DNA of 64,000 nucleotides, from contig OZ024876.1 of NCBI GenBank assembly GCA_964017185.1, forward strand, positions 36,508,406 through 36,572,405, read 5' to 3'. Made by a program: the position numbers and the translations under genes. This stretch comes from Rugalucina vietnamica (taxonomy: Eukaryota; Mollusca; Bivalvia; Lucinida; Lucinidae). Position 1 is the stretch's first letter. Every line of letters starts with the position of its first letter. Shown one piece after another: positions 9,192 through 62,500 of this stretch. The notes below the pieces were generated by a model. The model saw only the letters and a list, made by a program, of their open reading frames with translations. It was not told the DNA's origin and made no database searches.

Positions 9192-9434
9192 GAGCCACGT
9201 TATGAGAACACAAACAATGAGGTTTCCGAACAGGTCTGACAAAAACTCGAGTTGTAAAAGCACAGAAGATGGCTAGATAGCTAGAGGCTCAAATTTTTTA
9301 TTTAGAATGTAGAGGAATTGTACTGTCCGTGCAGCGAAAACAAAGGCGCTGATCAGCTTCGCAGTTACTGCAAAGCTGATCTGCGCATTTGGTTTCGCAT
9401 ATTGCAGATTGTTGTTATTTTCATGAGACTGCTC
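9192..9434 (-). mobile_element. Family A element (copy A5), abutting a splice acceptor
   Basis: Reverse-oriented A copy: GAGCCACGTTATGAGAACAC, GTTTCCGAACAGGTCTGAC, GCAGCGAAAACAAAGGCGC, hairpin, then an ATGAGACTGCTC end. Its end lies 24 bp upstream of the AG at 9457-9458 that opens the first RING gene exon. The junction reads CTGCTCATATTTCCTG, giving a CTCAT branch-point-like motif and a long pyrimidine tract. Confidence 0.75.
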
Positions 9435-9477
9435 ATATTTCCTGTTTTCTTTTTCCAGGTGAGGTAACGTCAGAAAG

Positions 9478-10845
9478 ATGTCGTCAGCAGAGGAACGTCG
9501 GGTCGAGGAGAAACTTAGGCAATTCCACGATGACGGTAAGAGTTGTCTATGAATGTCTATGAAAAGTATACCCCCTTGATCCCCAATTTAGTATTGTTTG
9601 TTTGTTTGTGTTCAGGCGTAACGTCCCAGGCGTAACCGCCTTGGCGAGGCGGTTCTAACGTGTACCCACAATCTATGTTTTGAGCAAAAGTAAGAAATAT
9701 ATCAAAGATTTTCCACTGAAAGTTTCAATTTTTACAACTTATAAAAATCTGTTTATTACATGGGCATGTTTTCGTAATGTTTGGGTTAATCGTTACCCAT
9801 TAACTCCATTTCAGGCTCTTACACGGAGTCGTCCACAGTAAAAGTCAGTTTCGCCGAAACGAGGAAACGAAACATCGTTCTGGACGAGGAAAGATTCGAG
9901 GACACGTTCCTCAAGTGTCTCATCTGTCGAGAGAACTATGACGACGACGAGAAAATGCCAAAGATGCTCCCTTGCCACCATACCTTCTGCCTAGATTGTC
10001 TGCAGCAAATGTTTCGTGTAGAGGGAGAGTTTAGACAAACTCTAACCTCAGCGTTCCGGTCCATGCCGGTGGCAGTGAAGATCAGTTGCCCTTCCTGCCG
10101 GGAGGGGATAATCGCATCCGCCATGGAAATTAAGAAATTACCCAACGATCATACTGTACTGGAACTGGTTGCGTTCGTGAAGCAGATCGGTAAAGCGCAG
10201 GTGGCGTACTGTTCGCGGCACCAGTTGCAACCGCTGAACTTTTTCTGTGAACCGTGTATGCAGCCAGTGTGCTGTGACTGCACTGTTATTGATCATAAGG
10301 AGATGAACGGACACAAAGTTGAAAACGTAGACGAAGCGATGAAGAAATACACTCCTGCCTTGGATAAAACTTTAGGCCAAATAGACGACGAGCAGAAAGG
10401 CTTGGAAGAGAAAAGGCGCTCGCTAGAAAAAGCGTTTGAAAACGTTGAGCAAATCCAGAGAGAGCTAGCGGTTCAGATACGCCAGACTTTTGATAGGATA
10501 CGAGATTCAGTTGACGAGAGAGAGCGAGAACTGTTCGAGATTTCAGAGCGCGAGATAGACCGGAAGCGGACATTACTGCGGGACTGCATGAAAACATTGA
10601 CCAATCGCGAAGCAGAATTGAAACAACAGAGAGGAAAATTAGTGAACGCGAAAGAAAACAAGGATTTGGTGAACATGTTTGATCTAAATAAAGCCGCCAG
10701 GGACTGTGTCGACAAAAAAGTCGATATTCCAGTGTCGAAATCATCCGAAGATTTCGCTGTCAGTTTTCAGTTTAACAGTCGACAAGAAGCGGGCATTAGA
10801 ACCAATATATCGAACTTTGGAGATGTTACTTTCAAGTTTGACTGA
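9478..10845 (+). CDS. RING/B-box/coiled-coil (TRIM-like) protein 1
   Basis: Probable E3 ubiquitin ligase of the TRIM type. Spliced model 9478-9535 plus 9815-10845, 362 residues; the intron has GTAAGA and TTTCAG borders and the phase is kept (GAC G|GC). The exon holding the ATG opens at 9459 after TTTTTCCAG. RING: CLIC at residues 54-57, PCHHTFCLDC at 72-81, CPSC at 111-114, with a long insert before the last pair. B-box: Cys152, His155, Cys164, Cys167, Cys172/175, His180, His186. A charged helical region at about 195-310 should form a coiled coil. There is no NHL, SPRY or filamin domain; the protein ends soon after ISNFGDVTFKFD. The gene at 17038 has the same exon layout and similar termini, so the two are likely duplicates. 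Substrate unknown. Confidence 0.9.
9553..9779 (+). mobile_element. Family B element (copy B5) filling a TRIM-like intron
   Basis: ATGAAAAGTATACCCCCTTG, then the GGCGAGGCGGTTCTAACGTG hairpin half, ACCCACAATCTATGTTTTGA and the ATGTTTTCGTAATG end. The 5' end is diverged and includes a GTTTGTTTGTTTGTGTTCAG stretch not typical of the family. It occupies about 227 of the 279 bp of the intron 9536-9814. Confidence 0.75.
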
Positions 10846-11002
10846 ACTTGACTCAAAGGTTGTGCAATTGTTATTTATCATCATGGCTTCCCTTGTTATA
10901 AACTTGTACCAGCGGCATGGTATCTTGTTAAACTCATACAATCATTTTACAAATGTAAACCTCGTATTCTGTCACCTGGAGACATGGGGACCTTATAGTA
11001 TG

Positions 11003-12162: not shown

Positions 12163-13258
12163 TAGATGCCAAGTTATTGCCCTTGTTGTTTTACCCACGA
12201 ACACCTTCAATTTTCGTTCATTTTTAGCACTGTTATTTTTAAGCTAATCACTTTAATTCTGTCATTTTTTAAATTTTCAAATTATCTCGCATTTTCATTC
12301 ACGAGCAATGGCCTATTTGCATTCTCAATCCCAGGCTACTAATATGCCTTTGGGATTATAACGTAGTGAAAATCACCTACTCAGTGGGAATTAATTATAC
12401 GAATGTCGGGATATTGTTGGCTTGAAAAAATGTAAGGGGGCATTTCGTGGAAAATGCTCAGCCGTAGAATCATTATTGCCTAACCTCCTTACATTATAAA
12501 ACCGGCCCACCATGAAGTTATTTCAAAGTGAAGGGACCATTTTCAAAATAAAGGGGCAATTTTGCCCATGGCTCCTTCCAAAATTATCCCTGGGAATATA
12601 AGATACTTGTTTTGACATATTATCATTATGCATGGTATGTCAATTTACTTTGGGTTTGTATCCTGCGTCTTATGTTGGAACAATTTAGTCCAAGAAATAA
12701 AGGCGACAGATGCTCAAGAAATGTGGATCAAAGAGAAATCAGTTTGATATTTGTTTACAATCTACAATTTAAAATATCATTTTCAAGAACAATAAACAAA
12801 AAATAAACATTAGCGCAAGATGCAGGAACAAATACAGTGGTCAGTATGCGGTCACATTGCCTTCTATGTCATCATAAACTTTTTAAGTCTAAGCTACTTG
12901 TCAATTCTGTGGTTGGGTCGGGGATGGTTATCATGACTGACCTCACAGATTGGTAGTTTATTTGAAATTTTCACTATTGAACTTATTCTATGTGCTGTTC
13001 TATATGTATTTATTCCAATTGTTAATCATTAAATCAAACTCAAACAACTAGTTTTCTTGTTTCAAGCATGTTACCATCTCAGACGATTCTATTACATAAA
13101 AACTGCGCTCATGTTTCATTTTATCATTTCGTGCTGAAAAGTATATCAGTTGTCTGCAAGTACACTTGCTTTTGCACCACTTCCTTTGGGTAATGAAGTA
13201 GAAATATACATTTTATCAAAACATTAGCTATATCGCGGGACAGACGCATAAACTCCAG
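12163..13258. other. Intergenic, nothing recognised
   Basis: AT-rich DNA with no convincing exon, RNA gene or family member. Confidence 0.5.
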
Positions 13259-17037: not shown

Positions 17038-19003
17038 ATGGCGACAGCAGAAAAGAGGGTTGAATACAGGTCCTTTAAAGAAGGCGTAATGAGCCCTACA
17101 TCAAAACAAACATTTGCAGGTACACATATTCCAAAATACCGGCGTTCCGGAGTTAAGCACCTGATTCCGGCGTTTCGGTTGGACGCGGTGACATTGTGCC
17201 CTAAAGAAATAGATGGGCTGCTTATGCTTATACACTGACCATCTGATTACTGGTTGACCACTCAGGTCTGAGCCTGCCCAGGAAAGGTGGTTCAAGTCAA
17301 ACCATTCATACGTATAAGCTTTTTGTGGCTTAGATAGATTGTTATATATCAAGCCCTTTGTTGGATGTCATGGCATCTTCGTTATGAAATCGAGGCAACA
17401 TCCCGACATGACCTTAGCTGTTGACTGGGACGTCAAGCATCAATTCAAACAAACCAACAAACAAAAGTTTGAGGTTCTAGATTGAATAGAAAATTATAAA
17501 TCGTGTTACAAGTGTCACCTTACTGTATTCAAATATCAGTTCAACCCATGTATGCAAACAAAAACGGCCATTTTGTGTGGCAGAAATCTTGATATTTGCC
17601 ATGCAGGAACTATCTATTGAGACCCATATTGCTCTTTGTCGGAAGTTGCAATGCGCTTATATATAATATATTTTTTCGCGTTTTCTATCACAATACTTAC
17701 ATTCAAAACATCAATTATTTCTCTTTATTCAGACAGTTGAAACTTTGTGCATGTGGATAGCTAAAATTAATGTTCTATGTTCATTAAAGGAACAGCGATC
17801 GTGTTTTCATATTGCTTGAGACGACACTGAGAGTTACTATCTTTGCAATATTTCTTTTCAGAAATGAGAAATAATCCACCTATCATCACAGCCCACAAGC
17901 TTATTTTCGACGAAGAGTCATTTGAACAATCCTTTTTGAAATGTGCCCTTTGCCACGAACGATATAATCTCTTTGAGAAATCCCCTCGACTTCTGCCATG
18001 TCATCATTCGTTCTGTTTCGACTGCATCCAGAAGTGTTTCCAGAAGGAGGCTGCCCACCGTCAGAGTCTGGCTCCCGTCTCGGGGAGTGGTGTCCCCTAT
18101 GCCCTGTCAATCAGCTGCCCCACGTGCTCCACATCTTTAATCACCACCGAGGAGGGGCTTCAACAACTCACCACGGACCACCGAGTTGTCCAGCTGCTCG
18201 ACTTTATAGGAACCACTGACAAACAGACGGTTGATTACTGTTCCAGCCACGCTTCACAACCGCTTAACTTCTTCTGTGAGATTTGCGTGACACCAATCTG
18301 CAGAGACTGTACAGTTATTGACCATAAGTCATGTTCCGAAAAGCAGATGGTTTTTGACATAGACAGTGCGGTGCAAAAGTATCGACCCGTTTTAGATACT
18401 GGAATTAAGGATATGGAAGATGAAGCTAAATCACTCAAAGAGAAGAGAGAAACGTGTGAAACAGCGGTAGAGAAGATGAAAACTGGGAACACTGATATTT
18501 GCAAAGAAATTAAGGAAGTTTTTGAGAAATTGCGTAAGGCGTTAGATGATCGCGAGCAAGAGTTGATAGACATGGCTATAAGTCACTCTGGCAAAGGATC
18601 CGAAAATATAGAGGAAAAGATTAAGCTGATAAAAGAAAAAGAAGCTTTGGTTAATGAGACAATTGTTTCGTTACAGCAAGCTAAGGCGGCTGGAAAAGTG
18701 AAGGAAATGTTCTCGATTCACCAGAAGGTCAAGGACTACAAGAAAGAAGCGCCAGTTACTATTTCTGAAATTTATATGAGCGATCAGTCGAGCTGCACTT
18801 TCAGTGGAAAAGATGACAGTACTTTGGTTTCCAGAATCTCAAACTTTGGGGATATTTCAGTGTCGTCGACTCGGTCTGAGCGTTCTGGTTACAGCTCATC
18901 TCTGACCAATGGGTATGGGTCAAGTCGATATGGTGGGAGTTCAGATACTACATCAAGATATGCGTATTCAAGCAGATATATACCTAGAACATACAGATAT
19001 TAA
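17038..19003 (+). CDS. RING/B-box/coiled-coil (TRIM-like) protein 2
   Basis: Probable TRIM-type E3 ligase, 407 residues. Model: 17038-17119 plus 17862-19003, GT-AG intron, phase kept (G|AA ATG). The short first exon (MATAEKRVEYR) parallels MSSAEERRVEE of gene 1. RING: CALC at residues 55-58, PCHHSFCFDC at 73-82, CPTC at 113-116. B-box: Cys154, His157, Cys166, Cys169, Cys174, Cys177, His182; the final His seen in gene 1 is absent (HKSCSEKQ), with Cys185 nearby. A coiled coil spans about 195-320. RISNFGDISVSS matches the end of gene 1; a Ser/Gly/Tyr/Arg-rich tail of about 45 residues (SSRYGGSS, YSSRYIPRTYRY) is added. No NHL or SPRY domain. The model is firm; the ligase role is by family. Confidence 0.9.
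17206..17455 (+). mobile_element. SINE-like repeat, group S3, in the TRIM-like 2 intron
   Basis: GATGGGCTGCTTATGCTTAT, GACCATCTGATTACTGGTTG, CTGAGCCTGCCCAGGAAAGG, GGTTCAAGTCAAACCATTCA, TGGATGTCATGGCAT and a tail CCCGACATGACCTTAGCTGT, TGACTGGGACGTCAAGC. The same succession occurs at 21058-21336. No clear box A/B, so it may be a SINE body lacking its head. Confidence 0.6.
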
Positions 19004-25223: not shown

Positions 25224-25413
25224 GTAACGAACAGACTTAAGAAACAACCCCAGTAGATTACCTGTTGGAACTCAATGTTATTCTACACATGTATTGTATA
25301 GAATCTTGTAGAATGTAAATGTACTGTAATTGTCATTTTTCATCTTACATGTATGTTCTTGCATGTATCTATCATAATCCTGTTTGTTTTGGATTGAATG
25401 CAGATTAATAAAT

Positions 25414-25647
25414 GAGCCGCCTCGTGGGAAAACCAACAATCTGCCTAGGCGAAAACAAAGGCGCAGATCAGCTTCGCGGTAACCGCGAAGCTGATCAGCG
25501 CCTTTGTTTTCGTTACTCGGATAGTACAATTACTCCTCTACTTAAATCCGAAATTTCAAGCTTCTAGCTCTTTCCCGTGCTTGTACAGGCTGGTTTGTGC
25601 CAAACCTGGTCGGAAACCACATTGTTGGTTTTCCCACGAGGTGGCTC
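25414..25647 (+). mobile_element. Family A element (copy A10, reference, with target duplication)
   Basis: Family A is about 235 bp: GAGCCGCCTC..GAAAACCAACAAT left end, mirrored by ATTGTTGGTTTTC..GAGGYGGCTC; GCGAAAACAAAGGCGCAGAT pairing with TCAGCGCCTTTGTTTTCG around a hairpin, here CTTCGCGGTAACCGCGAAG; and a longer right arm with GTACAATT, CTTCTAGCTC, TTGTACAGGC and GTCGGAAACC. This copy is flanked by AAAT on both sides (25410-25413, 25648-25651). No transposase is encoded. Four-base duplications and inverted ends indicate a cut-and-paste MITE of unresolved superfamily. It ends 43 bp before the acceptor of the Gln-rich gene exon. Confidence 0.9.
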
Positions 25648-25690
25648 AAATTTTGAATTTTGAATCTTTGAATCTTGAATCTTGTATCCT

Positions 25691-26838
25691 AGGCTCTAAA
25701 CCTCGATCTTCACGAACTAGAAGACACGTGGTAAAACACTATGTAATGCCAAAGACACCAACCCAACAGCAAAACCAACCACCCATCAACCACCCCCCAG
25801 CCGGTATGAACTATCAACAACAATATGTACAACAACAGCAGCAGCAGCAACAACAACCAATGATGATGGCTCCATTTCAACAAAATACATTGACACAACC
25901 TACAGCGACAATAGTTCAGTCAGCCAGTACGCCACAGATTATAGCACAGACTCCTAACACCAGGATTGTATGCCTTGGTAGTCCACCTCCACAGAAAAAA
26001 GAAAAGATGTATGATAAAGAAGGTATGGTGTAAAACCTTATCTCTGATAGTGAATTTCTGCCATTATTTCAAGTAGGGTGGTAGGAGTATGTACATCAAA
26101 TATTTTTACAGCTACAAAAATGGAAAAAAAGAAATTCTGTTGATTTTTTTCTTATTTTTACTCAAAACAATGAGTGTGGGTACACGTTAGAACCGTCTCG
26201 GCTTTAACGAGTACCCACAACCTATGTTAAAAAGAAAAAGAAAATAAAAATAGGTATACCCCTGCAAACCCCAGTTTTTCTATATAAAAGTGGGGTTCAA
26301 GGGGGTATGCATCTCGTGGACATGTTTTCCCGATGAATAAATTGGCTAAATGAACAGCGAAAATCGCTTTCATTGCTTCCCATTGTGTAAAATACTGTCA
26401 AACTTAGTTGAGCCACCACATGAGAAAACCAACAATCTGCATAGGCGAAAACAAAGGCGCAAATCAGCTTCGCAGTAACTTCGAAGCTGATCAGCGCCTT
26501 TGTTTTCGCTAAACAGATAGTACAATTCCTCTTCTTTCTAAATCCAAAATATCCAGCCTCTAACCATCCTCTGTGACTGTGCAGCCTGGTTTGTGTCAGA
26601 CCTGGTCGGAACCCCAAATTGTTGGTTTTCTCATGCACATGCCCATTTTCCATTTATAGAGTTTGGCGAGATGCTGATGATGCAGTTTACCCAAATGAAT
26701 CATATGGTGATGCAAAGACACATGATGAACCAGCTGAGCTGGGGAGACAACTCAGTCAGTGGAGGATATTGTGGTTGCGGCCCTTATGGAGGATGTTGTT
26801 CGTCTCACGGCAGTTGTCATGGCGGCTGTCATCATTAG
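25691..26838 (+). CDS. Gln-rich protein with Cys/Gly/His-rich C-terminus, last two exons
   Basis: Not recognised as a known family. Model: exon 25691-26021 (acceptor CCTAG, donor AAGAAG|GTATGG) joined to 26661-26838 (acceptor TTTATAG), phase kept (GAA G|AG). A possible start is the ATG at 25746 (MPKTPTQQQNQP), but the frame is open upstream to the acceptor, so an earlier coding exon is likely. Visible parts: a Pro/Gln-rich segment with an uninterrupted run of nine Gln, MMMAPFQQ, a lysine-rich patch (QKKEKMYDKE), a Met-rich amphipathic stretch (EMLMMQFTQMNHMVMQRHMM), and a tail dense in Cys, Gly and His (GYCGCGPYGGCC, SCHGGCHH) that could bind metal or form disulfides. There is no signal peptide or membrane segment in this part. 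The stop codon runs into a family A end. Confidence 0.6.
26101..26335 (-). mobile_element. Family B element (copy B11), intronic
   Basis: TTTTTACAGCTACAAAAATG, TGAGTGTGGGTACACGTTAG, AACGAGTACCCACAACCTAT, AAATAGGTATACCCCTGCAA, GTGGGGTTCAAGGGGGTATG, GGACATGTTTTCCCGATG. It lies in the intron of the Gln-rich gene. Confidence 0.75.
26410..26640 (+). mobile_element. Family A element (copy A11), abutting a splice acceptor
   Basis: GAGCCACCACATGAGAAAAC, CATAGGCGAAAACAAAGGCG, the hairpin variant CTTCGCAGTAACTTCGAAG, GTGACTGTGCAGCCTGGTTT, GGTTTTCTCATG. The last ~10 bp of the family end are replaced by CACATGCCC. Its end is about 20 bp upstream of the AG at 26659-26660. Confidence 0.75.
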
Positions 26839-29753: not shown

Positions 29754-32700
29754 GATAGTTCGTCTCTCACTAATGAGAAAGACCATCATTATTTCTTGAA
29801 TAGTGCTGATGTATGTTGGTGAGTTCTTTGATGGCTGACTAGGCCAATTCTGGCTCTAAACTGTCGGTTGCAAGTAGAGCAAGTCAATGTCATAGAGTCT
29901 GCTGGTGGCACATTTGTTTTGGCTTTGCGCTCTCTTCGCTTCTTTCAGCTTCACAGATTCTCTTCTTTTCATAGAGAGCTGTTCCTTTGTTGATGAGACC
30001 TCGCCACTTTGATCGCTCCTGTGCAGTCTGTTCCCAGGACCCCATTGGTATTTCGAAATCCTTCAGAGAGGCTTTGAGGGTGTCTTTGTAGCGTTTCTTC
30101 TGGCCACCTTGAGAGCGCTTTCCCTCCTGTAGTTCTCCATAGAAAACTTTCTTTGGAAGTCGCGCATCAGGCATTCTTATAACATGACCAGTCCATCTTA
30201 GCTGTGCTAGCTTTAAGACTGTATGCATGCTTTGCATCCCTGCTTTCCTCAGGACCTCTGTGTCTGGAATCTTGTCCTGCCACTTGATTTTTAACAACTT
30301 TCTCAAACAGCTTAAGTGGAAATGGTTACGTCTCTTTGCATGGCGTTGGTATACTGTCCAGGTCTCACATGCATACAAGAGGGTTGGCAGTACCACAGCC
30401 TTGTAGTCTTTCAGCTTGGTGTCAAGCTTGATTCCATTTCGCTCCCAGACATTTGCACGGAGTCTTCCGAATGCCACACTAGCTTTTGCAATTCTGGCAG
30501 TGATCTCATCATCAATATGCACTGCTCTGGAGAGAGTGCTTCCCAGGTAGGTGAACTTGTCAACAACTTTCAGTTTTTGCCCATTCACAGTGATGGTTGG
30601 TTCATTATATGGTTTTCCGGGGGCTGGTTGGTGTACAACCTCTGTCTTTTTTGTGCTGATTGTGAGATCATAGTTATCACATGACTGTGAGACTTGATCC
30701 ATGGCTCTTTGCATTTTTGCCTCTGTGTTGGCATTCTTATCCATATCATCTGCATAGAGGAGCTCATGTAGCACATCAGTCTGGACCTTAGTTTTGGCTT
30801 GCAACCTTCTGAGGTTGAATATGTTGCCATCAAAACGGTACCTGATTGGAAAACCAGTGTCCTGAAAAGCATCCATAAGCATGGCAGAAAACATCATGCT
30901 GAACAGTGTTGGTGCCAGAACACAGCCTTGTTTGACCCCATTTGTTACTTCAAATGGTTCAGAGAACTCTCCATCATTCTGCACACGTGCCTGCATGCCA
31001 TCATGAAACTGCCGCACCATAGCTATGAATCTGGGTGGACAGCCAAACTTGGCCATGATTTTCCAGAGTCCATCACGACTAACAGTGTCAAAAGCTTTGG
31101 TGAGGTCAACAAACGTCATGTATAGATCTACATTCTGTTCTAGGCATTTCTCCTGAAGCTGTCTTGCTGTGAAGATCATGTCTATTGTCCCTCTGTTTTT
31201 TCTGAATCCACATTGACTTTCTGGGATAAGTCCCGTCTGATCAAGATGAGCATTCAGACGATTCAACAGAATTTTTGCAAGTATCTTCCCAGCAATTGAT
31301 AGGAGGGAGATTCCTCTGTGATTGTCACAGACTTGAGGATTTCCTTTCCGCTTGTATAGGTGGATTATGCATGCATCCTTAAATTCTTGTGGGATAGCCT
31401 CCTTCCTCCACATACAGTGAAACAACTCTGTCAGTTTCACTGCCATGGGTAGCCCCCCAGCCTTGTAAACTTCGGCAGGAATTGCATCTGCACCTGGGGC
31501 TTTGCCAGATGATAGTTGTTGAACTGCTTTTCTTGTTTCCGTAACGGTAGGAAATTCATCTAACAGAACATTGCACTCTATCTGTGGAAGTCTGTCGATT
31601 GCATCCTGATTGATGCTTGATGGTCGATTAAGCACACTATTGAAGTGTTCTGCCCACCTTTCCAAGATAGCTTCTTTATCTGTGAGAAGAGTGTTTCCAT
31701 CTGCACTGAGCAATGTGGTGGCTCCAGAACTCTTTGGACCATAAATGGTTTTCAGTGCATCATGAAATTTCTTCATGTCCTTTCTATCCGCAAAAGACTG
31801 AATTTCTTCTGTTTTCTTCCTCAGCCAGGAATCTTGCATGTCCCTAAGCTTGGTCTGGACTGTCTTACAAATGTTGCTGTAGGCTGCTTTCTTTGATACT
31901 GAGCTAGTATCATCTTGATGTGCCTTGAGCAAACGGTGCTTTTCTTCAAGAAGCCTCTGAATTTCATCATCATTCTCATCAAACCAGTCTTGGTGTTTGC
32001 GAGATGGATGGCCTAAGGTGCTTGCAGCTGAAGAAAGAACTGTTTTATGGAAAACTGTCCAGTTTTCTTCGGGGTCCTCTGAACTGAGATTCATTGCATC
32101 AAGTTGGTTGCAAATGTCTGTTAAGAAATCTTGTCTCATGCTGTCTTCATTCAGCTTTGAGACATCCAGTCTCTTAGGAGCTTTCTTGCCTTGAGGTCGC
32201 CTCGCAGGCTGTATTCTTAGGTTGAGTTTGCTGACAACCAGTCTATGATCTGTCCAGCAGTCTGCACCACACATAGTCTTTGTCACTTTAACATCCTGCC
32301 TGTCTGTTCTCCGCACTATGACATAGTCTATGAGATGCCAGTGTTTGGAACGGGGATGCATCCAGGATGTTTTGTTCCTATTAGGTAGACGGAAGACTGT
32401 GTTGGTGATTAGAAGATCATGTTCAGCACACTTCCTGAGAAGCAAGAGACCATTGCTGTTGCACTTTCCAACCCCTTCTGGACCTATAACTCCTTCCCAG
32501 GTCTGGTGGTCTGTACCCACTCTGGCATTAAAGTCGCCAAGAAGGATAAGCTTGTCTGTGCGGGTTGTTGCAGAAATAACATTGTCTAGGTCATCATAGA
32601 ACTTGTCCTTGACCTCATCTAGATTGGTCATTGTGGGTGCATAAGCACTGACAATAGTTGCATGTTTATTGCCTGACAGAGGAAGTCTCAATGTCATTAG

Positions 32701-35983: not shown

Positions 35984-36123
35984 CTCAAATAACATTCAAT
36001 CCCCCGGCTAATGGAAACGATGTGGCCTTTAACAAGATACCCGAGGATACTACTAACGCTGCTGTTACTGCTGAAGAAAATGTGAGTGTACTACTAGTAC
36101 TACTACTACTACTACTCCTACTA

Positions 36124-36217
<94 letters not shown>

Positions 36218-39200
36218 TTAGTTTCAGTTCTTTTTATCTATTAGAAACCAGCCAGGGTAATTTTTGAAGGAGGTGACATCTCCTGCTATAGTTAGTTTGA
36301 ATGCATTTTTGAATAGTTTTAACCTTCCCAAAAATGTTTTAGGTGGGCTGCTCTGGAAATTGTTTTGGCAGATAGGTTTACTCACACCATGTTCTGAGGT
36401 ACCATGGGAAAATACACATTCCATACAAAGCAGACTTTGGCATCATTTATGGGGTCATTGTCCTTTTTTTTTTATTAATAATACAATGTATATTTATACA
36501 AATAATTTGAATGTGAATAACTTCACACATTTCAAAATGCATTTAAAGGTCATAAAGTGCTATAAATCATTTATAATGTAGGTATTTGTCATGCCAAGTT
36601 ACCCCACCCACTTTCAAGCAATGTGCGTTTTCGAAATTGATATATACCTTTGCTTTTTAGATACTGTTATTTGAAACATTATCATTGATCAAGATTACAC
36701 TCTGTCTATGTGCCTATCTTGGTATTTGTATGTACAGCTGACCATTTTGGTCTGCTCATCTGTATGTCTGTAGCACGTAATTTGCAGAAACCAGTTCTTT
36801 TATGTACAAAACAATTTATATTTTCATCAAGTTAACAGTTATGATGAAACATTTGGAAGGCAAAATCAGAAGTTCTAAATGGGCCAGATTTGTGTACTAA
36901 AAAGGCATTAATCCATGGTCAATACTTTATAGATATGCCCTTATCGATGTTCTTTAGTGTAGTCTATAAAACTAAAGGACCATATCTACCAAAGTTATTG
37001 TAATTCAGCTTCTCACCGTCCTGAAAGGCTGGGAATGGTATCGAAAATTGTTGAAACAGTGAAGATGGTCACTGATCAGATATGTAATCATGTGTCTTCA
37101 AGTGTCAAGAAAAAACAACAACAAACATTTACTCAAAATAAAGAGGTATACCAACAAAAGTGTTTGTATATCTGCCTTTGACAGCCCTAAATATCTGAAA
37201 ATTATGTTATATGATTACTTAGACTTATAGGCTGTTATTCAGATTAATAAATCCATGGCCTAAAGTATTAATATTTTTTATGAATGCATTGAAAACAGAG
37301 GAAAAATGCGGAAAAATAAAAGGTATGTACACAAGAAAGTTCTTGTTTCTTGGTCTTCAATGCTCAAATAGAGCTGAAAATGGTGTTACAAATTTCTGAG
37401 ATAATAATCTTTTGGTATGAAATCGGATTAATTAATCATATGATTTAAAGTTTTAAAACAAATATTGAAATCATAGATAATTTAAAGAAAAAAAAATAGA
37501 AAAATAAAAGGGGTATACTTACAAATAATCTTGTATCTTGGCAGCTGACGTTTAGGAATAGCTGAAAATGGTGTCAAATGATTGCTTTGATTTTGATTTA
37601 TAATCTTGTATTCATATCCATAAATCATGTGACTCAAAGAGGAAATAATTTTAATTTTATGAAGGCATAGAAGGTATGAAAAAATGTGGAAAAAGTAAAA
37701 AAAAATCTTGTATCTTGGTCTTTTACGGGTCTGAATAGCTGGAAATGGTGTCAGATGATTGCTTTGACGTTGTTCAATAAGCTTGTATTCATATATGTAA
37801 ATTATATGACTCAAAGTGGTGATAATTTTATGAAGGCATAGAAGATGGAGGAAAAAATGAGGAAAAATAAAGTGATATACTTACAAAAGTTCTTGTTTCT
37901 AGTCAAACGAGTATTAGAAAGACCTGAAAACGGCATCAAATAGACAATTATCTATTGGTTTGTTATCAGATAAGTTGATCATATGATTTCAAGTTTCAAA
38001 AATATTATTGAAATTCTTAAAGAAAAAATTGAGGAAAAATAAAGGGGTGTACTTACTAAAGTTCTTGTATCTCGGCCTCTGGCAGCCCAAAATGGCTGAA
38101 AATTGTGTTACATGATTGCTTTTACCAAGACACATTGGTTAGTATTCAAATGTATAAACCATATGATTAAATGCATTAATGATTATATGGATACGTAAAA
38201 AATATAGTAACGATGACGTAGTATACATACAAAAGTCCTTGTATCATGGCCTCAGATGGCCATAAAGAGCTAAAATGGTGTTGAATATTTGCTATGACAA
38301 TTATCTTTTGGTATGAAATCAGATGAATTAATAAAATGATTTCAAGTTTTAAAAATATTATTGAAAACATAGATAAATAAAGAAAAAAAGGAAAAATAAA
38401 AGGGGTATACTTACATAAAATCTTATATCTTGGCCTCTGATGGGCCTGAATAGCTGAAAATGATGTAAAAAGATTGCTTTGACTTTGTTCGATAAGTCTG
38501 TATTCATATATAAATCAAAGTGACTCAAAGTGGTGATATTTTTATGATGACATAGAAGATGGAAGGAAATTGCAGAAAAAATAAAGGGATATACTTACAG
38601 AAAATCTTGTTTCTAGTCAACCAATGATTATAAAGAGCTGAAAATGGCATCAAATAATTGTTTAGACAATTATATATTCGTGTGTGATCAGATAAGTTAA
38701 TCATATGATTTCAAATTTCAAAAATATTATTGAAAACATAAATACTTAAAGAAAAATTAAGGAAAAAAATGAAGGGATATACTAACAAACATTAAAGCCT
38801 CAGCTGAAACTGGTGTTAAATGATTGCTTAGACGAAGGCGCATTGGCTGGTATTCTGATATATTAACCATATGATTGAATGTTTTTATAATTTTTATGGA
38901 TGCATAAAAATTATAGGGATAAAACGCAGCAACGATAACGGGGTGTGCATACAAAAATCTTTCTATCATGGCCTCAGATGGCCATAAAAATTGTTCAAAA
39001 TGATATCCAAGACAATTGTCTATCGGTATATGTTCAAATAAATTAATCATGTGATTTCAATTTTCAAAAAGTATTTATGAAACCTTACATAATTAAAGAA
39101 AATATTGAGGAAAATTTATAGGGGTATACTTACAAAAGTTACTGCATCTTGGCTTTTTATGGCCCTATAGATATGTAGATGGCATCAAAAGATTGCTAAG

Positions 39201-42200
39201 ACAATGCTCTATTGGCCCATATTCAGATTAATAAATCATGCAACTGTTAAGAAATAAGGAATCGACTCACAAAATTACCTGTAATTCGTCTGCTAATTGG
39301 CGTATAAGGCTTCAAATGGCATCCAGTTATACATGTATGTATTGATATGGCACTGCATTTTGCCTGTGATATATAATAACATGATATAATTTATAGTTTC
39401 ATTTAAATGGGAGTAATACTTCGGAAAGTTTTAGACAGAGTATCTTCGAAAATGCTTACCTCCAACTTAAGCAAGTTCTGTTAACATTAATGTTATCTAG
39501 ATGTATTTTGTAATGAGGTTGCAGATGTTCTATCAATATATTTAAAATACATTTCAAAGAAAATAACATAATATTCTGATAAATGCTAACTGTCATGGTA
39601 CAATCAACTATATGCAGAGTTTCAAAGTGGGTGGGGTAATTATGTGTGAAATAATGCCATACGTTTAAAAGCTTGAAGTTGTTAGTGTAAAATGTGACTG
39701 CACTTTATACTTTTGCCTTACAAACAATGTACAATGACTAATAAATAAGAAAAAAAGAGCCAATTTATATACTACATTGCAGCAGACTTTTCATAGGATA
39801 TATAGCTTTTTGTCATAGCACTACCTCCATACATCAATGAATTTGACCATCGTGCCAAAAAATGTCCAGAGCAGCCCTTTTGATCCTTCATCGGGAAGGT
39901 GAGGACTACTTAAAAAAAACCAACATTCAAACCAACTATAGCAGGAGATGTCACCTCAAACTCAAATATGAGAGATACAGGTTTTTGGGTTCTAGGGTAT
40001 ATTATATGACCATGCAAACGGTCCAATGTGGAAATTCTGTTGTAATTTCATTTGTTTCAAGCTTCGGTGTCGATGTTTTGTGCTTTTTGTGCCTTTCATG
40101 TGCGTATTCGTTTATTTTGTAAAGTTTATTAACCAGGGTAGCTACCTTTAGGGAAATAGCTGCTCTCTCGACTTATCGTATGCTCTCTTTATATCAGTAC
40201 CTAAATGTCATTCTGTTAAATATCACCAGGCGTTTTAGGGTGAGACCATCAGGAAAACATGTCCGTGCAATATATACCCCCTTATACCACACTTTTATGT
40301 AGCAAAACTGGGGTATGCAGGGGTATACCTATTTTTCTTATTTTACCTCCAAAACATAGATTATGGGTACTCGTTAGGCAAGGCGGTTCTAACGTGTACC
40401 CACAATCTATGTTTTGAGCAAAAATAAGAAAAATATTAAAATTTTTCATCTGAAAATTTTCATTTTTTAAAACTTAAAAAATCTCTGTATATTGCATGGG
40501 TAAGTTTTCGTAATGCTTTATTTTCATTGCAACTGCCTGATCCTGATTATTGCTTTCCACTATTACGAAATCAAGCCCATGCAATATACAGAAATTTTTT
40601 TTTTCAACTGTAAAAATGGAAAAATTTCATTGGAAAAAGTTCGATATTTTCAACATTTTTGCTCAAAACATTTATTGTGGGAACACGTTAGAATCGCCAC
40701 GTTGAGTCGGTTCTAACGAGTACCCACAATCTATGTTTTGGATCAAAAATAAGAAAAATAGGTATAGCCATGTACATCCCATAACTATATAAAAGTGGGT
40801 TATAAGGGGGTATATATGTGTCATGGGTATGTTTTCCTGATGCCATTTACATTTCAGATAATCGCTGATGGAGGGACTTACCCCTACACCTACACTATAG
40901 TGAGTCAGGACGGTGACACTACGGAGGGGAACATTCTGTTTGAAATAATAACAACAGGCCCAACTAATTCTGTGAAGACCAAGACAACCGCCACCTTTGA
41001 CTACGAGACCAAAAGTTCATATAAATTGATAATTCAGTAAGTTTTTGATACTTTACTTGATAAATTGTTTGTGCTCATGTTTTAAAAATTAGAATTTTTT
41101 GGCAAAATTTAAAGAACTAGTCATCTTGTTCTTCAAGTGTGTAGTCGGAAAATGTTTATGATGTATTTTTCTTTCCTTCCGGGAGTCTATGTTGGGATTT
41201 AAAATTATTTTATTGCATCGATTCCTGATCCCTCTATTTTTACTTTCTATAAGTACTATATAACTTATTCTATCCCTAGGGCTGTGGACAGTGCCCCTAC
41301 CAAGGCCACCTCCTCGGCGACCCTCACGGTTCTCATCTCTGACGTCAATGACGCCCCGATTTGGCCTGCCTACAGGCTCATTGGCTGTATAGCAGAACAA
41401 TCTGGCGAAGGTATGCAACTTAATTTCCCCATCAGTATCATTTGGGTGAGTCCACTATCATTTTTAGGGGCATCAGGAGTGATTTTTATTTTTTTTATCT
41501 CATTTTGTCGATGAAATGCCTCCAAGCAAACAGAATAGCCACAGATGGGACGCCGCGTTCTGCGGCGTCATATCTGTGGCTATTCTGTTTGCCTATGTCC
41601 CATAAAAGGGACGCCAGGCTTAACTCCGTACCGACAATACTACTGTGTACGCGTTTTCTGAGGATTCTTTTTATAACCTTTCTTTTTAGAATCAAACTTT
41701 TAGATATATGTACACGTATGGAAATGATCATTTATTCAAGTATGAAAATTGAAGTAAAAACTGTTTGATAATCCTGTAATTACATGTTATCCTATCAGTC
41801 ATATTTTTGTCCCCTACATAGATAAATAGAATCCATCATGGGTGGTCAGTGGAGATAGGAAAATCCCAACCCGAGGGTCCACCCGTTCCAGTGGGAAACG
41901 AGGCTCGCCGAGTTTCCCACCGGAACGGTGGACCCGAGGGTTGGGATTTTCCTTTCTCCACTGACCACCCATGATCGATTCTTTTTCTTACATACCCCGA
42001 TTAAGCCTAAATTCATTTTACCGGTAACGTCACCTGGTACCGTGCTTTAATTAACTCAGTCTGATGACGTTGTGTTTATTGCGGATATGACGTCAAATGT
42101 AAATAAATCGTTGTCAAATTGGAAAGAGATGCAGTTTTGATTTGTTTTTCGTTGAAAACGGGTGTGAATCAAGAATATACCCTATGAATTCACACCAATG

Positions 42201-44033
42201 TAGTCTAGTTTTGTTGAACAATATTGCTTGAAGCAGCTGCTTTGGGCTAGAAACGATCGAATTTAGTCGCGTGCTTTTCTTATCTTGTATGAGCAACCAA
42301 GCGAGCAGTGTACATGTAAGATAAATAGAATCCATCATGGGTGGTCAGTGGAGATAGGAAAATCCCAACCCGAGGGTCCACCCGTTCCAGTGGGAAACGA
42401 GGCTCGCCGAGTTTCCCACCGGAACGGTGGACCCGAGGGTTGGGATTTTCCTTTCTCCACTGACCACCCATGATCGATTCTTTTTCTTACATACCCCGAT
42501 TAAGCCTAAATTCATTTTACCGGTAACGTCACCTGGTACCGTGCTTTAATTAACTCAGTCTGATGACGTTGTGTTTATTGCGAATATGACGTCAAATGTA
42601 AATAAATCGTTGTCAAATTGAAAAGAGATGCAGTTTTGATTTGTTTTTCGTTGAAAACGAGTGTGAATCAAGAATATACCCTATGAATTCACACCAATGT
42701 AGTCTAGTTTTGTTGAACAATAGCTGCTTTGGGCTAGAAACGATCGAATTTAGTCGCGTGCTTTTCTTATCTTGTATGAGCAACCAAGCGAGCAGTGTAA
42801 GATAGATTTGTCTACCACCGCTAAAATACCGGAATTTTTCTATCTTTATGAAAGAGGTATGTAAGAAAGATTTTTCTTACATACCTCTATCATAAAGACA
42901 GAAAAATTCCGGTATTTTAGTTGTGGTAGATAAATCGATCTTACACTGCTGGTTTGGTTGCTCATGCAAGATAAGAAAAGCACGCGATATAATTCGATCG
43001 TTTCTACTGCTTGCAGCAATGGCGTTCACCAAAACTAGACAAAAGTGATGTTTTTCACAGCGAGTATTCTTGAATCACGCTCGTTTTAAAATAAAAACAA
43101 ATAAAAACTACATCTCTATTGACTTTGACAGCGATTTATTTACATTTGACGTCACATCCGTCATATGCACAACGTCACAAGGATTAAAGCACGGTACCAG
43201 GTTACGTTACCGGTAAAAGGCTAAAATCGGAGTATGTAAGAAAATCGGAGTATGTAAGAAAAAGAATCGATCATGGGTGTTCAGTGGAGAAAGGAAAATC
43301 CCAACCCTCGGGTCCACCGTTCCAGTGGGAAACTCGGCGAGCCTCGTTTCCCTCTGGAACGGGTGGACCCTCGGGTTGGGATTTTCCTATCTCCACTGGA
43401 CACCCATGATGGATTCTATTTGTCTACCACCGCTAAATTACCGGAATTTTTCTATCTTTATGAAAGAGGTATGTAAGAAAATAAGAGAAAAAAGAGGAAA
43501 ACATGACAAACTGGGGTGGCTGTATAACATGGAATACATCAAGTTTTAAATTGAAAACAGTGACCAGAAATCGATGCAAAATGCCTATTCAATAAACTGA
43601 ATAAACCTTTTGTAAACATGTCTGACCGAGGCACTGAACGGAGAGCACGTATATGATATAACTACTGAAGATACATAATATACTGCATGATATGTAATAT
43701 AGAGCAAAAACTGCATTAATTTTGTAACTACTTTTCAATTGTTGACAGTGCGTGCAGGCAGATAAAACTCGTTGAAAATTGTCATTTTGTGACAATTTAA
43801 AAGGTATTTGTTAGCATAAAACCGAAAACTGTTTGCGTACCTCTGATTTTTACTGCGTACATGGTAGGCACAGTTCTTATTTTTTATGCGTACAGAGCGA
43901 AAAATCGTGCGTACATACGCAGTACGCATCGATATCTACATCGCCAGTAGATAATGATCAAGAAATGACGTATATTAGTAGTTTACATGGTGTAGTGATC
44001 AAGCCACACACCGGATAAACAAGGGGTGGTAAT

Positions 44034-44087
<54 letters not shown>

Positions 44088-45106
44088 TGGCTAATTGACT
44101 GTATAGCAGAACACTCTGTCGAGGGCTCGATCCAAAGCTTCCCCGGTATTTAGAATGGTACTTAAAACGGGGACCGTCTCTATATGACCTTAGCTGTTGA
44201 ATGGAACGTAAAATACAAAGGAAGCAAGCAACCAACTCATTACTGCATAGCTGATCTGCGGCTTTGTTTTCGAATATGCGGCTCATTTGATTACAGGTGA
44301 CGTGGTGACAGGAACGTTCCTTGCCACAGACCCCGACACGACGTCGCCTAACAATCAGATAGAGTTTTACCATATCACAGGTAACTATGGACTGAACTCT
44401 TTCTTTCTTTCTGTATGTTTGTTTGTTTCTTTCTTTATCATCCACCCATCTGTACCTGCCTGCCTGCCTCCCTACCTGTCTCATACTGGCGTCAATGACG
44501 CCCCAGTCTGCCCCCCCCCCTTTTTAAAATAGTCAGCACCCCATACCCCATTCTATCCCGCTTTTATATAGTAAAACCAGGGTGTACAGAGCGGCTATAC
44601 CTATTTTTCTTATTTTGTCCCTAAAACATAGATTGTGGGTACTCGTTAGAACCACCGTTCTAACGTGTACTCACAATCAACATTTTGAGCAAACTAATTA
44701 AAAGTATCGAATTGTTTCTGATGATTTTTTTTCTCCATTTTCAAAGCTGAAAACAAATCTCTATACATGTATATTGCATGGGCAAGTTTCCGTAATGTGC
44801 GTATTTAGTTAGCACAACGTACTATTTTTCTTTCAAGGAGGCAATTCTGCTGGTCAGTTCGATGTCGACATTTCGACAGGGGTGATAACTCGTACAGCCG
44901 TACCTCTCGACATCAGTAGCCAGAATTGGTACGAGATCCAGTATGAAGCGGTCGACAGCGGGAATCCAGTCATGACGTCTACAACCACTGTGTATATAGC
45001 CGTGGGTTCCCCAATCTGCGGCGGAACGGACTCACTCAGAGGACACTTGTATACTCGGACTTTCATTATTCTTGGTTTTGTGGTCGCATGGTTTAATATG
45101 TTTTAA
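35984..45106 (+). CDS. Cadherin-repeat protein, last five exons, possible GPI-type end
   Basis: Exons 35984-36081, 40858-41036, 41280-41410, 44297-44380 and 44838-45106 join with consistent phases and GT-AG borders, giving 252 residues open at the N-terminus. Cadherin signatures: FDYETKSSYKLIIQAVDS, TLTVLISDVNDAPIW, VVTGTFLATDPDTTSPNNQI, FDVDISTGVITRTAVPLD, YEIQYEAVDSGNP, TTVYIAVG. These form most of two extracellular calcium-binding repeats. The protein then ends SPICGGTDSLRGHLYTRT followed by a hydrophobic FIILGFVVAWFNMF and stop, with no cytoplasmic tail or catenin-binding region; this resembles a GPI-attachment signal. Role would be cell-surface adhesion or recognition. Introns 1 and 3 (4.8 and 2.9 kb) are packed with repeats. 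Upstream exons are not found in the window. Exon model firm; GPI anchoring is inference. Confidence 0.88.
36126..36213. repeat. (CT)n microsatellite in cadherin intron 1
   Basis: About 44 CT units with one CC interruption, preceded by an ACT trinucleotide run (36090-36122). Confidence 0.95.
36270..39957. mobile_element. Inverted-repeat element carrying a satellite array (family O)
   Basis: Left end GAGGTGACATCTCCTGCTAT, then GTTTGAATG, GGGCTGCTCTGG and, about 330 bp in, TACCCCACCCACTTTC. The right end mirrors all of these (GAAAGTGGGTGGGGTA-like at 39627, CCAGAGCAGCCC, CATTCAAACCAAC, ending GATGTCACCTC). The outer ~90 bp of each arm are well conserved; deeper parts have drifted. Between the arms lies the tandem array at 37140-39300. 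No transposase or other ORF. It sits wholly in cadherin intron 1. No target duplication is evident. Confidence 0.75.
37140..39300. repeat. Diverged ~180-bp tandem repeat array
   Basis: The motif GGGGTATACTTACAAAAGTT, then TTGTATCTTGGCCTCTGATG, GCTGAAAATGGTGTCAAATG, ATTGCTTTGAC and TAATCATATGATTTCAAG recurs in order. Counting from the TATAC landmark, units begin near 37145, 37321, 37511, (37690), 37871, 38044, 38220, 38402, 38586, 38772, 38941 and 39121: about 12 units of 169-190 bp. Units are well diverged, so the array is not recent. Confidence 0.85.
40247..40515 (+). mobile_element. Family B element (copy B14), cadherin intron 1
   Basis: CATCAGGAAAACATGTCCGT, ATACCCCCTTATACCACACT, AACTGGGGTATGCAGGGGTA, GGCGGTTCTAACGTGTACCC, TAAGTTTTCGTAATG. 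Hairpin left arm shortened. Confidence 0.8.
40560..40842 (-). mobile_element. Family B element (copy B15), abutting a cadherin acceptor
   Basis: TATTACGAAATCAAGCCCAT, AATATACAGAAATTTTTTTT, TTAGAATCGCCACGTTGAGT, AAATAGGTATAGCCATGTAC, GGTATGTTTTCCTGATG. The end is 15 bp before the AG at 40856-40857; the end supplies a CCTGAT branch-point-like motif. Confidence 0.8.
41440..41632 (-). mobile_element. Family F element in cadherin intron 3
   Basis: GTGAGTCCACTATCATTTTT, then AACAGAATAGCCACAGATGG pairing with ATATCTGTGGCTATTCTG around GACGCCGCGTTCTGCGGCGTC, then CATAAAAGGGACGCCAGGCT. Complete relative to 24112-24347 but reversed. Confidence 0.7.
41821..43425. mobile_element. Foldback structure: tandem pair plus inverted copy (family E)
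   Basis: A 499-bp unit (41821-42319) is repeated directly at 42320. The second unit, extended to about 42868, is followed by its own reverse complement (about 42872-43422), giving inverted arms of about 550 bp with a centre near 42870. Each unit begins with a 150-bp palindrome: GGTGGTCAGTGGAGATAGGA, GGTCCACCCGTTCCAGTGGG, CGAGGCTCGCCGAG and their complements. Arms differ at scattered positions and small indels. A third partial direct repeat (CTACCACCGCTAAATTACCG) follows at 43426-43490. No ORF. Located in cadherin intron 3. Confidence 0.85.
43491..44036. other. Intron 3 of the cadherin gene, nothing further recognised
   Basis: AT-rich with scattered GCGTAC motifs near 43835-43930; no exon or element assignment. 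Confidence 0.4.
44037..44084. repeat. (CA)n microsatellite
   Basis: About 23 CA units in cadherin intron 3. Confidence 0.95.
44088..44128 (+). pseudogene. Relic of the 3' end of cadherin exon 3
   Basis: About 37 bp match the end of exon 3 (41373-41410) at roughly 32 of 37 positions. The relic would encode LIDCIAEHSVEG beside LIGCIAEQSGEG of the functional exon. It has no downstream GT at the matching point (GAGGGC), so it cannot splice the same way. It lies 170 bp upstream of exon 4. Confidence 0.65.
44158..44222 (+). mobile_element. SINE S3 tail fragment
   Basis: ACCGTCTCTATATGACCTTA, GCTGTTGAATGGAACGTAAA match the tail of the S3 repeats. Confidence 0.4.
44241..44284 (-). mobile_element. 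Family A fragment abutting a cadherin acceptor
   Basis: TACTGCATAGCTGATCTGCG, GCTTTGTTTTCGAATATGCG, GCTC: half hairpin and short arm of family A. It ends 12 bp before the AG of exon 4 (44295-44296). Confidence 0.6.
44472..44520 (+). pseudogene. Second cadherin exon relic (VNDAPV)
   Basis: CGTCAATGACGCCCC is identical to part of exon 3 (41343-41357) and would read GVNDAPVCPP. It lies in the intron between exons 4 and 5 and runs into a C-tract. No splice sites surround it. Confidence 0.45.
44534..44797 (+). mobile_element. Family B element (copy B16), near a cadherin acceptor
   Basis: CATACCCCATTCTATCCCGC, AACCAGGGTGTACAGAGCGG, AAAACATAGATTGTGGGTAC, TTCTAACGTGTACTCACAAT, CATGGGCAAGTTTCCGTAATG shortened hairpin. 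It ends 40 bp before the AG of exon 5. Confidence 0.7.
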
Positions 45107-59210: not shown

Positions 59211-59320
59211 AGATACATTTGCAAACATAATGTCATTCTGAAGGTCAGTAGCCCCAGGATAGGCCCTACATCGCAAAAGCCATGGATGATACGCTATCTG
59301 AACAATATTAATTTGTTTAC

Positions 59321-59509
59321 AGGGTTTCCGACTGAGTCTGACACAAACCAGACTGTACAGCTACATAACTGAGTCAGAAGTTTGGAGTTTCGGATTTAGG
59401 AGAAGAGGAGTTGAAGCGAAACACTGGTGCTGATCAGCTGTGCAGATCACAGCGAATCTGCCCCTTTGTTTTGGTATAGTCAAAATCTTTTATTTTTATT
59501 ACGCTGCTC
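59321..59509 (-). mobile_element. Family A element, decayed, abutting a zinc-finger gene acceptor
   Basis: GGGTTTCCGACTGAGTCTGA, CACAAACCAGACTGTACAGC, GAAGCGAAACACTGGTGCTG, ATCAGCTGTGCAGATCACAG, ACGCTGCTC end. The end is 17 bp before the AG at 59525-59526. Confidence 0.6.
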
Positions 59510-59526
59510 TTATGTTTTGCTACAGG

Positions 59527-62500
59527 TCAAGATGGGGCATCCAACAATTTGCCAGAATTATCAGGAAACGCAAGTGTCTCAGTTGAATGTTTGGATGTGG
59601 AAGTCAATTCACCGATTAAATCTGAAATATCCACTAACAGTGAATTAGATCATTGCACAGAAAATGCATTTAAAGTTTTCAAAACAGAAGAGACATGTTT
59701 TGATGATGCGCTGAACAATGCTGAAACGCATTCTTCTACGGAACTGATACATCAAAGATTTTCATGCAGTTCCCCAATGTGGATAGAAGCAAGAGACCGT
59801 GAATTAGATCACTCCTTACTGGCTTTAGAAGCGAATGGATTGATCAAACCAGTTAACGAAAATGGTTTAGAAAAAACTCTGAGAAAATCAAAGCGAACAA
59901 AAGTCCGAAATCGTTGGATTGAATTTGATGAAAATATGGAGCACTCAGGAATGCAGAATGCGAATAAACTAACGCAAAGAAGAGCAGTTATTAGTAAACA
60001 TCAAAAGGGCAAGCCGATAGGACGGGACCAGATAACCAGGATAAAACCAATTAGAGATATGTCGGGAGTAGCAAAAGAGGGCAATGCCGTTGGAGGATCG
60101 ACTGGCAAGACTCCAATTAAGGAAGAAAGTGCTAAAACTTTTGTACTGAAATCATATAAAAGGAAGAAAAGGACAGATTGCTCTACAAAAGAATCTTTTA
60201 CATGTGTAGTGTGTAACACATCATTCCGGAATCTTGCCAAGCTCGCTATACACGAATCTACACACACAGGTAAGCTGTTTACACTACACCAAAATGCCCA
60301 TAGTTCTCTGCCATTTAGATGCAGATGCAAATTTCATGTCAAAATCATCATGATTATTATATTTGTTGGCATGCCTGCGCTGTACAAATCAAAACAATAA
60401 GACCTTAAAGAGTATTCTAAATTTGTTTTTCACAAGAATATCAGTGTTTGTAACATAGGATGCATGGGCACATGTACCAAATCACATCAGGAAAACATGT
60501 TCTTGCAATGAATACCCCCCTAAACCCCACTTTTATATAGTAAAAGTTTTAAATTGGGGTATACAGGAGTATACCTATTTTCCTTATTTTTGATCCAAAA
60601 CATAGATTGTGAGTACTCGAGGCGTTTCTAACGTGTACCCACAATCAATGTTTTGAGCAAAAATATTAAATACATATATATAAAAAAAAATGATAAAATT
60701 TTCAATTTTTACAGATAAAAAGAAAGTCTCTGTATATTGCATGGGCAAGTTTTCGTAATGCTGCAGTTGAATACTAAAGCATGCTAAGGTCATATTCTTG
60801 TACTGGTACTCAATATAACTAGGAATTGTATTAAATTTTACAAAATCTGAAACGATATCATTATGAAAACATGTTTATAAAATAAATACCCTTTATACCA
60901 CACCTTTCTAGAATAAAACTGGGATGTTCTGAAGTAGATCTTTGCATTTTTTCTTATTTTTGATCCAAAACTTAGAGTATGGGTACTCGTTTGAGCCGCC
61001 TCACAACAATGTTTTGAGCAAAAAAATCAGAAGCAGTTACAATTTCGAAATGAAAATATTTTTATAGGCGAAAAAATTGCTGTTCATTGCCCAAGCAATT
61101 TTTCTCAGCATTAAAAATTGAATATGTCATAGTAAAGTTTTTGATATTTTCAATAATTTTGCTCGTCGAGGCGGTTCTAACGAGTACCCACAATCTATGT
61201 TTTGGAGCAAAAATAAGAAAAATAGGTATACCCCTGTATACCCCAGTTTTGCTAATAAATATGGGGGTATGGGGGTATACTTTGCACGGACATGTTTTCA
61301 TGATGTTGCGTTTGTTCCACTATTTTACAGGAGATGAGCCCTATAAATATGAGACCTTGGAGAAACCATACGTACGTAAAGAACATTACACGAGGCACCA
61401 AGCGACTCACAAGTGTGCTACATGTGACAAAGTATTTACTCGGTCTAATCAACTGAGGAGGCACGAAGCTTTATACGCCGGACAGAAATTCCCGTGCGAC
61501 TTTTGTGATAAATCTTTCTCATATAAAGCTTTGTTAGAGCATGGCGGGGAGGCCAAGCATTCATTAGAGCAGCACGTGATAGAGCATGGCGGGGAGGCCA
61601 AGCAATCGTCAGAGCAGCACATTTTAGAGCATGGTGGGGAGGCCAAGCATTCGTCAGAGCAGCACATTGTAGAACATGGTGGGGAGGCCAAGCTTTCGTC
61701 AGAGCAGCACATTGTAGAGCATGGTGGGGAGGCCAAGCATTGGTCAGAGCAGCAGATGACAGAGCATGGTGGGGAGGCCAAGCATTCATTAGAGCAGCAC
61801 GTGATAGAGCATGGTGGGGAGGCCAAGCTTTCGTCAGAGCAGCACATTGTAGAGCATGGTGGGGAGGCCAAGCATTCGTCAGAGCAGCATGTGATAGAGC
61901 ATGGTGGGGAGGCCAAGCTTTCGTCAGAGCAGCACATTTTAGAGCAAGATGGGGAGCCCAAGCATTCGTCAGAGCAGCAGATGATAGAGCAAGATGGGGA
62001 GGCAAAATCGGCAAAATCCTGCTGTGATATATGTGGTAAAATGTACACTCAGGCTTACCGACTGAAGATACATAGAGCCTGGCATAACGTTCAAAGACCA
62101 TATCAGTGTGACAAGTGCAACAAATCGTTCTTTCGCGAGGATCGTCTGATGAGGCATTCGTTAACCCATACACTGTCAGTTGATAACTCGTATGTTTGCG
62201 AGACGTGTGGAATTGTATAAGGATTCGGCCTCACTGAGATGGCACATGCGTGATCATTCAGACGGAGCTTTGACATGCAAAATATGTAGCAAAGTATTCA
62301 AAAAGATATCATACCTACGATATCATATGAAATTTGTACACGATGGAGTGAAGCGTGTATGCTGTCATGTATGCGGGATGCAGTTTGCAAGAAATAATGC
62401 TCTTAATTCTCACTTGGCATCTCATACCTCAGAGAGACGCTTTAACTGCTCCACGTGTGGAAAATCATTCAAAACCAACTCTTCTCTCAGTAAGCATGAA

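Follow-up and report, generated by a model that had tools for sequence, protein, structure and literature searches.

Miniature inverted-repeat transposable elements (MITEs) are known to favour gene neighbourhoods. For introners, intron-generating elements of which some are MITE-like, one report describes an insertion bias to nucleosome linkers (PMC9860276), and for human and mouse another describes a deficit of DNA elements at distances of up to 50-100 bp from exons, with retroelements rarer at acceptors than at donors (PMC3088655). A search of the literature, in so far as the texts were available in part, found no report that elements peak at distances of up to 60 bp from splice sites. The stretch considered here, called the window, comprises 64,000 nucleotides of the lucinid bivalve Rugalucina vietnamica (assembly GCA_964017185.1, contig OZ024876.1, positions 36,508,406 to 36,572,405; part of contig C8 in a 1.09-Gb genome). 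An earlier note, made from the letters of the window, had observed that the right edges of two palindromic element families, A and B, lie 12-43 bp upstream of nine of twelve internal splice acceptors, and had proposed that the elements insert preferentially just upstream of 3' splice sites, are kept there because their ends supply the branch point, or helped to create the introns. The observation is confirmed as real, and it recurs outside the window. What it reflects is a hugging of splice sites that is strongest at acceptors rather than confined to them.

Element ends and splice sites

Copies of A and B are short and abundant, and can fold end to end as one hairpin. Both families were rebuilt as models from the copies in the window, and edges were placed by nhmmer. 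All nine right edges of the earlier note were recovered to within 2 bp, the ninth (44284) by eye since nhmmer overruns it. The 12 acceptors were read directly in the sequence; the whole window was not annotated, so that the denominator of 12 is the one chosen in the earlier note. Nine of its acceptor positions stood as given and three were corrected (25692 for 25690, 26659 for 26660 and 59525 for 59526), and its statement that the acceptors had been placed from coding evidence was too strong, as 9458, 17861 and 25692 precede likely start codons. Six of the eight better-supported acceptors are abutted by A or B. Both families and both orientations take part, as had been said, with two plus and three minus copies of A and with B copies on both strands.

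Fewer than one such coincidence had been expected by chance in the earlier note. When the element map was shifted against the 12 acceptors, counting an edge 10-45 bp upstream, eight acceptors were abutted, compared with a mean of 0.29 and a maximum of 4 over 9,000 shifts (acceptor 44296 fails the counting rule through the nhmmer overrun). In a stricter comparison, with a weaker outcome, elements were shuffled within the seven window introns with both ends known: 2.3 abutted acceptors were expected and five were seen (six with 44296; p=0.003), and at the donors of the same introns none was seen against 2.3 expected.

An independent sample was provided by introns of dynein (AAA_6), myosin head and kinesin genes of the same genome, chosen through Pfam matches and blind to the elements. 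Junctions were solved from profile continuity, reading phase, the absence of stops and splice-site scores, with the elements unused. Of 107 exon pairs, 99 junctions were solved (eight were unsolvable) and 93 introns were kept, six having scored under 2; in two of these six, too, an A copy ended close to the acceptor (gaps of 12 and 28 bp). Exon matches of dynein genes that recur in tandem were excluded, and matches to ABC_membrane and DHC_N2 were listed but not sampled. The sample thus covers one genome, three gene families and 37 copies of A or B, which are held by 29 of the 93 introns. As an observation on the dynein heavy-chain genes themselves, their tandem arrays of exon-matching stretches (C17:29963764-29965381, C17:29979684-29982048 and C4:45152804-45153706, repeating at about 110, 158 and 156 bp) could be multiplied exons or exon-bearing satellites.

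The earlier note had suggested comparing edge distances with positions shuffled within introns, and on the 93 sampled introns this comparison gave a clear excess: in 15 introns a copy ended at a distance of 5-60 bp upstream of the acceptor, compared with 4.7 in the shuffles (p<1e-4). In the sampled introns, A and B ends therefore lie within 60 bases of acceptors about three times more often than chance predicts. The excess was found in dynein (7 vs 2.9, p 0.013, 52 introns) and in kinesin (7 vs 1.7, p 0.0004, 28 introns), with a single case in myosin (1 vs 0.1, p 0.09, 13 introns). It held for copies of at least 30 bits (12 vs 3.9 expected) and of at least 120 bits (11 vs 2.6), for introns of at least 600 bp (10 vs 2.2) and for the best-scored junctions (10 vs 3.1). 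Gaps on the acceptor side ranged from 10 to 60 bp, and the abutting copies were ten A in plus, two A in minus and three B in minus orientation; the preponderance of plus copies of A does not recur in the window, with its two plus and three minus copies.

Placement at acceptors only was considered and rejected, since donors were enriched as well (9 vs 4.7, p=0.03; 5 vs 2.6 for copies of at least 120 bits, p=0.09). Thus the proposed preference for sites upstream of 3' splice sites stands in the independent sample, but not as something peculiar to that side of the intron. With both intron sides pooled, 24 edges lay at 5-60 bp and five at 61-116 bp; between 61 and 120 bp, 2 were observed against 4.9 expected for acceptors and 3 against 4.9 for donors.

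Word counts extended the comparison to the whole genome. The acceptor word TTTTNCAGG was counted 6-30 bases past the A end GCGGCTCA and occurred 186 times, compared with 105 for its mirror image; the donor word GGTAAGT occurred beside A ends 280 times in donor orientation, compared with 120 mirrored. These counts show that real splice sites adjoin A ends on both sides genome-wide. As the acceptor word is carried by seven of the 93 solved acceptors, the excess of 81 suggests that, very roughly, a thousand acceptors are abutted by this exact A end; the donor word is carried by five of 93, and the excess of 160 gives, equally roughly, about three thousand abutted donors, so that over the whole genome abutted donors may equal or outnumber abutted acceptors. 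A count for a B acceptor word (170) was set aside as spoiled by another repeat, which made up about 30 of 100 among the matches listed (by eye).

That the pattern is chance read selectively from one window is hardly credible. It is true that it was picked out after the fact and that four of the 12 acceptors are not firmly supported, but it recurs in the 93 introns chosen blind to elements (p<1e-4), and the genome-wide word counts point the same way. A preference for target words was likewise rejected as the sole cause: close to acceptors the density of A target words reaches 0.088 per base, up from about 0.05, yet weighting the shuffles by these words leaves 4.7 expected against the 15 seen. 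Other repeats (33 intervals in 24 solved introns) gave no significant excess: six introns had one near the acceptor, compared with 3.1 expected (p 0.08), and two near the donor, compared with 3.1, in a control that is small, with rough edges and with eight of the 24 introns also bearing A or B. Specificity of the effect to these two families is therefore not firmly established.

Insertion bias and its alternatives

The family A consensus is 236 bp long and runs TGAGCC...GGCTCA. An exact 4-bp target-site duplication flanks 33 of 55 copies, compared with 6.7 in shuffled pairs, and has the consensus ANNT (mostly ATTT, AAAT, ATAT, AATT or AGTT), the inverted repeat proper being GAGCC...GGCTC. Being short, with terminal inverted repeats and a target-site duplication of fixed length, family A is MITE-like. 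The family B consensus (about 276 bp) runs CATCAGG...CGTAATG; its flanks match over 2 bp in seven of 21 copies (1.6 in shuffled pairs) and over at least 3 bp in none of the 21. No coding capacity was seen in either of these short elements, and no match was found to the exact A core in viral or prokaryote contigs or to the exact B core in viral contigs. One copy of A folds at -134 kcal/mol (z -16), with its ends paired over 28 bases, and one copy of B at -128 kcal/mol (z -15), paired end to end.

These ends resemble branch sites, whose motif is yUnAy. Because the inverted repeat proper of A abuts the ANNT duplication, an intact outward junction reads GGCTC-A, that is CUCA in the transcript; the earlier remark that the GGCTC end gives CTCA with the next A thus holds at intact outward ends. 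The outward ends of B read CCTGATG on one side and CGTAATG on the other, and the branch-point-like B ends noted before can be read in the window as CCTGATG before 40857 and CATGATG before 61330. Such is the anatomy of the ends; from it we infer a possible use in splicing.

Insertion bias beside exons, tolerated through splice-compatible hairpins, is the best reading of these data, and one in which we place about even confidence. A and B entering introns would favour the first or last ~60 bp, with the branch-point and polypyrimidine region before the acceptor as the most favoured landing zone. The cause is likely to be a bias to accessible DNA on the exon side, namely the linker next to a nucleosome-sized, GC-richer exon, a cause that would yield a two-sided, exon-hugging pattern and is preferred here. 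Insertions would survive since the product still splices: the hairpin of 240-280 bases could loop out, and, with the ANNT duplication recreating CTC-A and the B end reading CCTGATG, a usable branch point may stay beside the old polypyrimidine tract and AG.

A number of observations weigh against this reading. The sample favours short introns, since close exon pairs were fetched (median of the 93, 515 bp); among the 15 abutting copies, three have scores below 30 bits; and the difference between acceptors and donors (15 vs 9) is slight and hence not firm. When target words were combined with local AT content as sequence proxies, 5.1 abutted acceptors were expected against 15, so that these proxies leave the excess unpredicted. 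In the predicted fold the CTCA-bearing ends are paired. Genome-wide, the acceptor word was found 175 times at 106-130 bases past the A end, of which perhaps 138 are relevant by extrapolation, one other repeat accounting for about 21 of 100 among the matches listed (by eye); the contrast of near with far is accordingly weak, at 186 vs 175 on the raw counts (p 0.6) and 186 vs ~138 on the extrapolated ones (p 0.009).

Elements might instead have landed near an end of introns that were then short and were later lengthened by further insertions. The small size of the introns (again the median of 515 bp) fits this idea, as do some window introns that barely exceed the length of an element. However, the excess is greatest in introns of at least 600 bp (10 vs 2.2), and the edges fall from 24 to five past 60 bp, where an ancestral intron of ~250 bp predicts an even density to about 120 bp; we consider this history improbable.

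A different possibility is that insertion was even and that copies on the acceptor side were kept for their function, either for the branch point or because a hairpin aided exon definition. Outward A ends read CTCA when intact and B ends CTGATG or GTAATG, and gaps of 10-15 bp are found at window acceptors 40857, 44296 and 59525, at two kinesin acceptors (10 and 13 bp) and, as a further 12-bp gap, at a junction excluded from the counts for its low score. Such gaps leave too little room before the AG for an ordinary branch point, which would then be expected within the element itself or upstream of a hairpin that loops out; this geometry suggests that the elements supply the branch point where the gap is 10-15 bp. 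The signs to be expected of selection for such supply were missing. CTCA-Y junctions were not commoner near acceptors (65 of 96 compared with 61 of 96 mirrored, as distinct rows among the matches listed, 100 of 186 and 100 of 105 respectively), and the best branch-point candidate lay in the element in 13 of 23 cases, compared with a fraction of 0.59 from the gap alone, so that scoring added nothing beyond geometry. Nor was there a trend with age: copies abutted acceptors in nine of 18 cases among the less diverged and in six of 19 among the more diverged, and insertion is favoured over slow retention because divergence does not set copies at splice sites apart from the rest. Donors, where no branch point is needed, are hugged too. 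Branch-point supply, as proposed in the earlier note, is therefore suggested by the short gaps but not by CTCA-Y or by candidate scores, and retention by function appears unlikely as the explanation of the pattern.

We would tentatively advance a further idea, itself less probable than not: that insertion of A, by cutting at ANNT and setting GGCTC before the duplicated A, rebuilds a CUC-A branch site through which acceptors of the order of a thousand splice. If true, such rebuilding would let A land in the branch-point region without breaking splicing.

It is very improbable that the elements are introners which made these introns by insertion into exons. The window does hold an intron (9537-9814) that is largely a B remnant (9541..9779, plus strand, found by nhmmer in two pieces, 9541-9594 and 9634-9779); the remnant fills most of the intron, starting 4-16 bp past the donor and ending 35 bp before AG 9814, and among the introns examined this is the only one that comes close to having an element beside its boundaries on both sides. 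In the sample, a paralogous intron at the corresponding position is lacking for 17 of 26 element-bearing introns, and in this partial sample only three of the 26 share their place with an element-free paralogue. On the other hand, element-bearing introns are longer than 480 bp in 23 of 29 cases, the element includes neither their donor nor their acceptor, and position and phase are common with a paralogue at similar rates with and without elements (9 of 26 and 29 of 67, respectively), so that the suggestion that the elements helped to create introns found no support. In profile numbering, three shared intron positions (176 and 289 in kinesin, 79 in dynein) have an A or B copy in both paralogues, and at kinesin 289 it hugs the acceptor in both; these cases are too few to judge.

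Copies, acceptors and other features of the window

The remaining abutting copies are as follows. An A copy at 9191..9435 (minus; 215 bits) has its right edge 23 bp before AG 9458, an acceptor that lies upstream of an ATG at 9479 and has no coding support. Another, at 25413..25648 (plus; 252 bits), is flanked on both sides by the duplication AAAT and ends 44 bp before AG 25692, which also has no coding support, and a third, at 26409..26645 (plus; 242 bits), has an edge 14-17 bp before AG 26659 (nhmmer edge 26642). The B copy at 40561..40842 (minus; 253 bits) ends in CCTGATG 15 bp before AG 40857. Before AG 44296 there is an A fragment of 45 bp (44240..44284, minus; 31 bits, E 3e-9) with the end GCGGCTCA at a distance of 12 bp; the fragment is real, but its nhmmer alignment overruns to 44303 and the end at 44284 was read by eye. 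A B copy at 44536..44797 (plus; 206 bits) ends in CGTAATG 40 bp before AG 44837, a decayed A copy at 59322..59510 (minus; 97 bits) has an edge 15-17 bp before AG 59525 (nhmmer edge 59508), and a B copy at 61090..61305 (minus; 160 bits) ends in CATGATG 25 bp before AG 61330. No A or B copy was found near acceptors 17861, 35983 and 41279, which precede a RING/B-box exon (17862..19003, plus) and two cadherin exons (35984..36082 and 41280..41411, both plus).

Support for the acceptors varies. Two cadherin relatives span 40857, 41279, 44296 and 44837; their alignments have small gaps, of which one or two adjoin junctions, and similarity to these relatives starts at the exon following 35983. TRIM59-like relatives support acceptor 9814, although the closest one (91%) has three extra residues at the junction. 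The RING/B-box gene matches a TRIM59-like protein of Dreissena at 81% and a protein of Potamilus at 70%, and the window genes thus have molluscan relatives. Acceptor 59525 is plausible, with moderate support. For 26659 and 61330 the support is consistency of phase, read by eye as agreement with donor 26021 in the former and as a zinc-finger linker joined in phase in the latter.

Several other repeats were seen. An open LINE-type frame of 1055 amino acids, with endonuclease and reverse transcriptase domains, occupies 29890-33057 on the minus strand, and a mariner-like transposase remnant (35113-35469; Transposase_1, E 9e-17) lies just upstream of exon 35984. Cadherin intron 36083-40857 contains an array resembling a minisatellite (37398-39081), in which the unit is about 177 bp long. 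A third palindromic foldback family, with several similar inverted copies, lies in a cadherin intron away from its ends (41819-43426), and a 45-bp tandem repeat extends over about 630 bp inside the coding portion of the zinc-finger exon (61446-62075).

Comparison with known systems

That two unrelated hairpin families peak at splice sites implies either an insertion bias to exon flanks or a persistence that is neutral to splicing, and bears on how transposable elements shape introns and on the origin of introners from ordinary MITEs. With MITEs, A and B share their short consensus (236 and 276 bp), terminal inverted repeats and high copy number and, in A, a 4-bp target-site duplication. In mammalian introns the same measure, the density of transposable elements against distance from the splice site, has the opposite sign, A and B being in excess where human and mouse elements are depleted (PMC3088655). 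Introners are like A and B in being short, non-autonomous and tied to splice sites, some with terminal inverted repeats and short target-site duplications (of 4 bp for two of those drawn in Fig. 2 of the report), but they make whole introns, whereas A and B occupy only part of longer introns and contain neither the donor nor the acceptor (PMC9860276).

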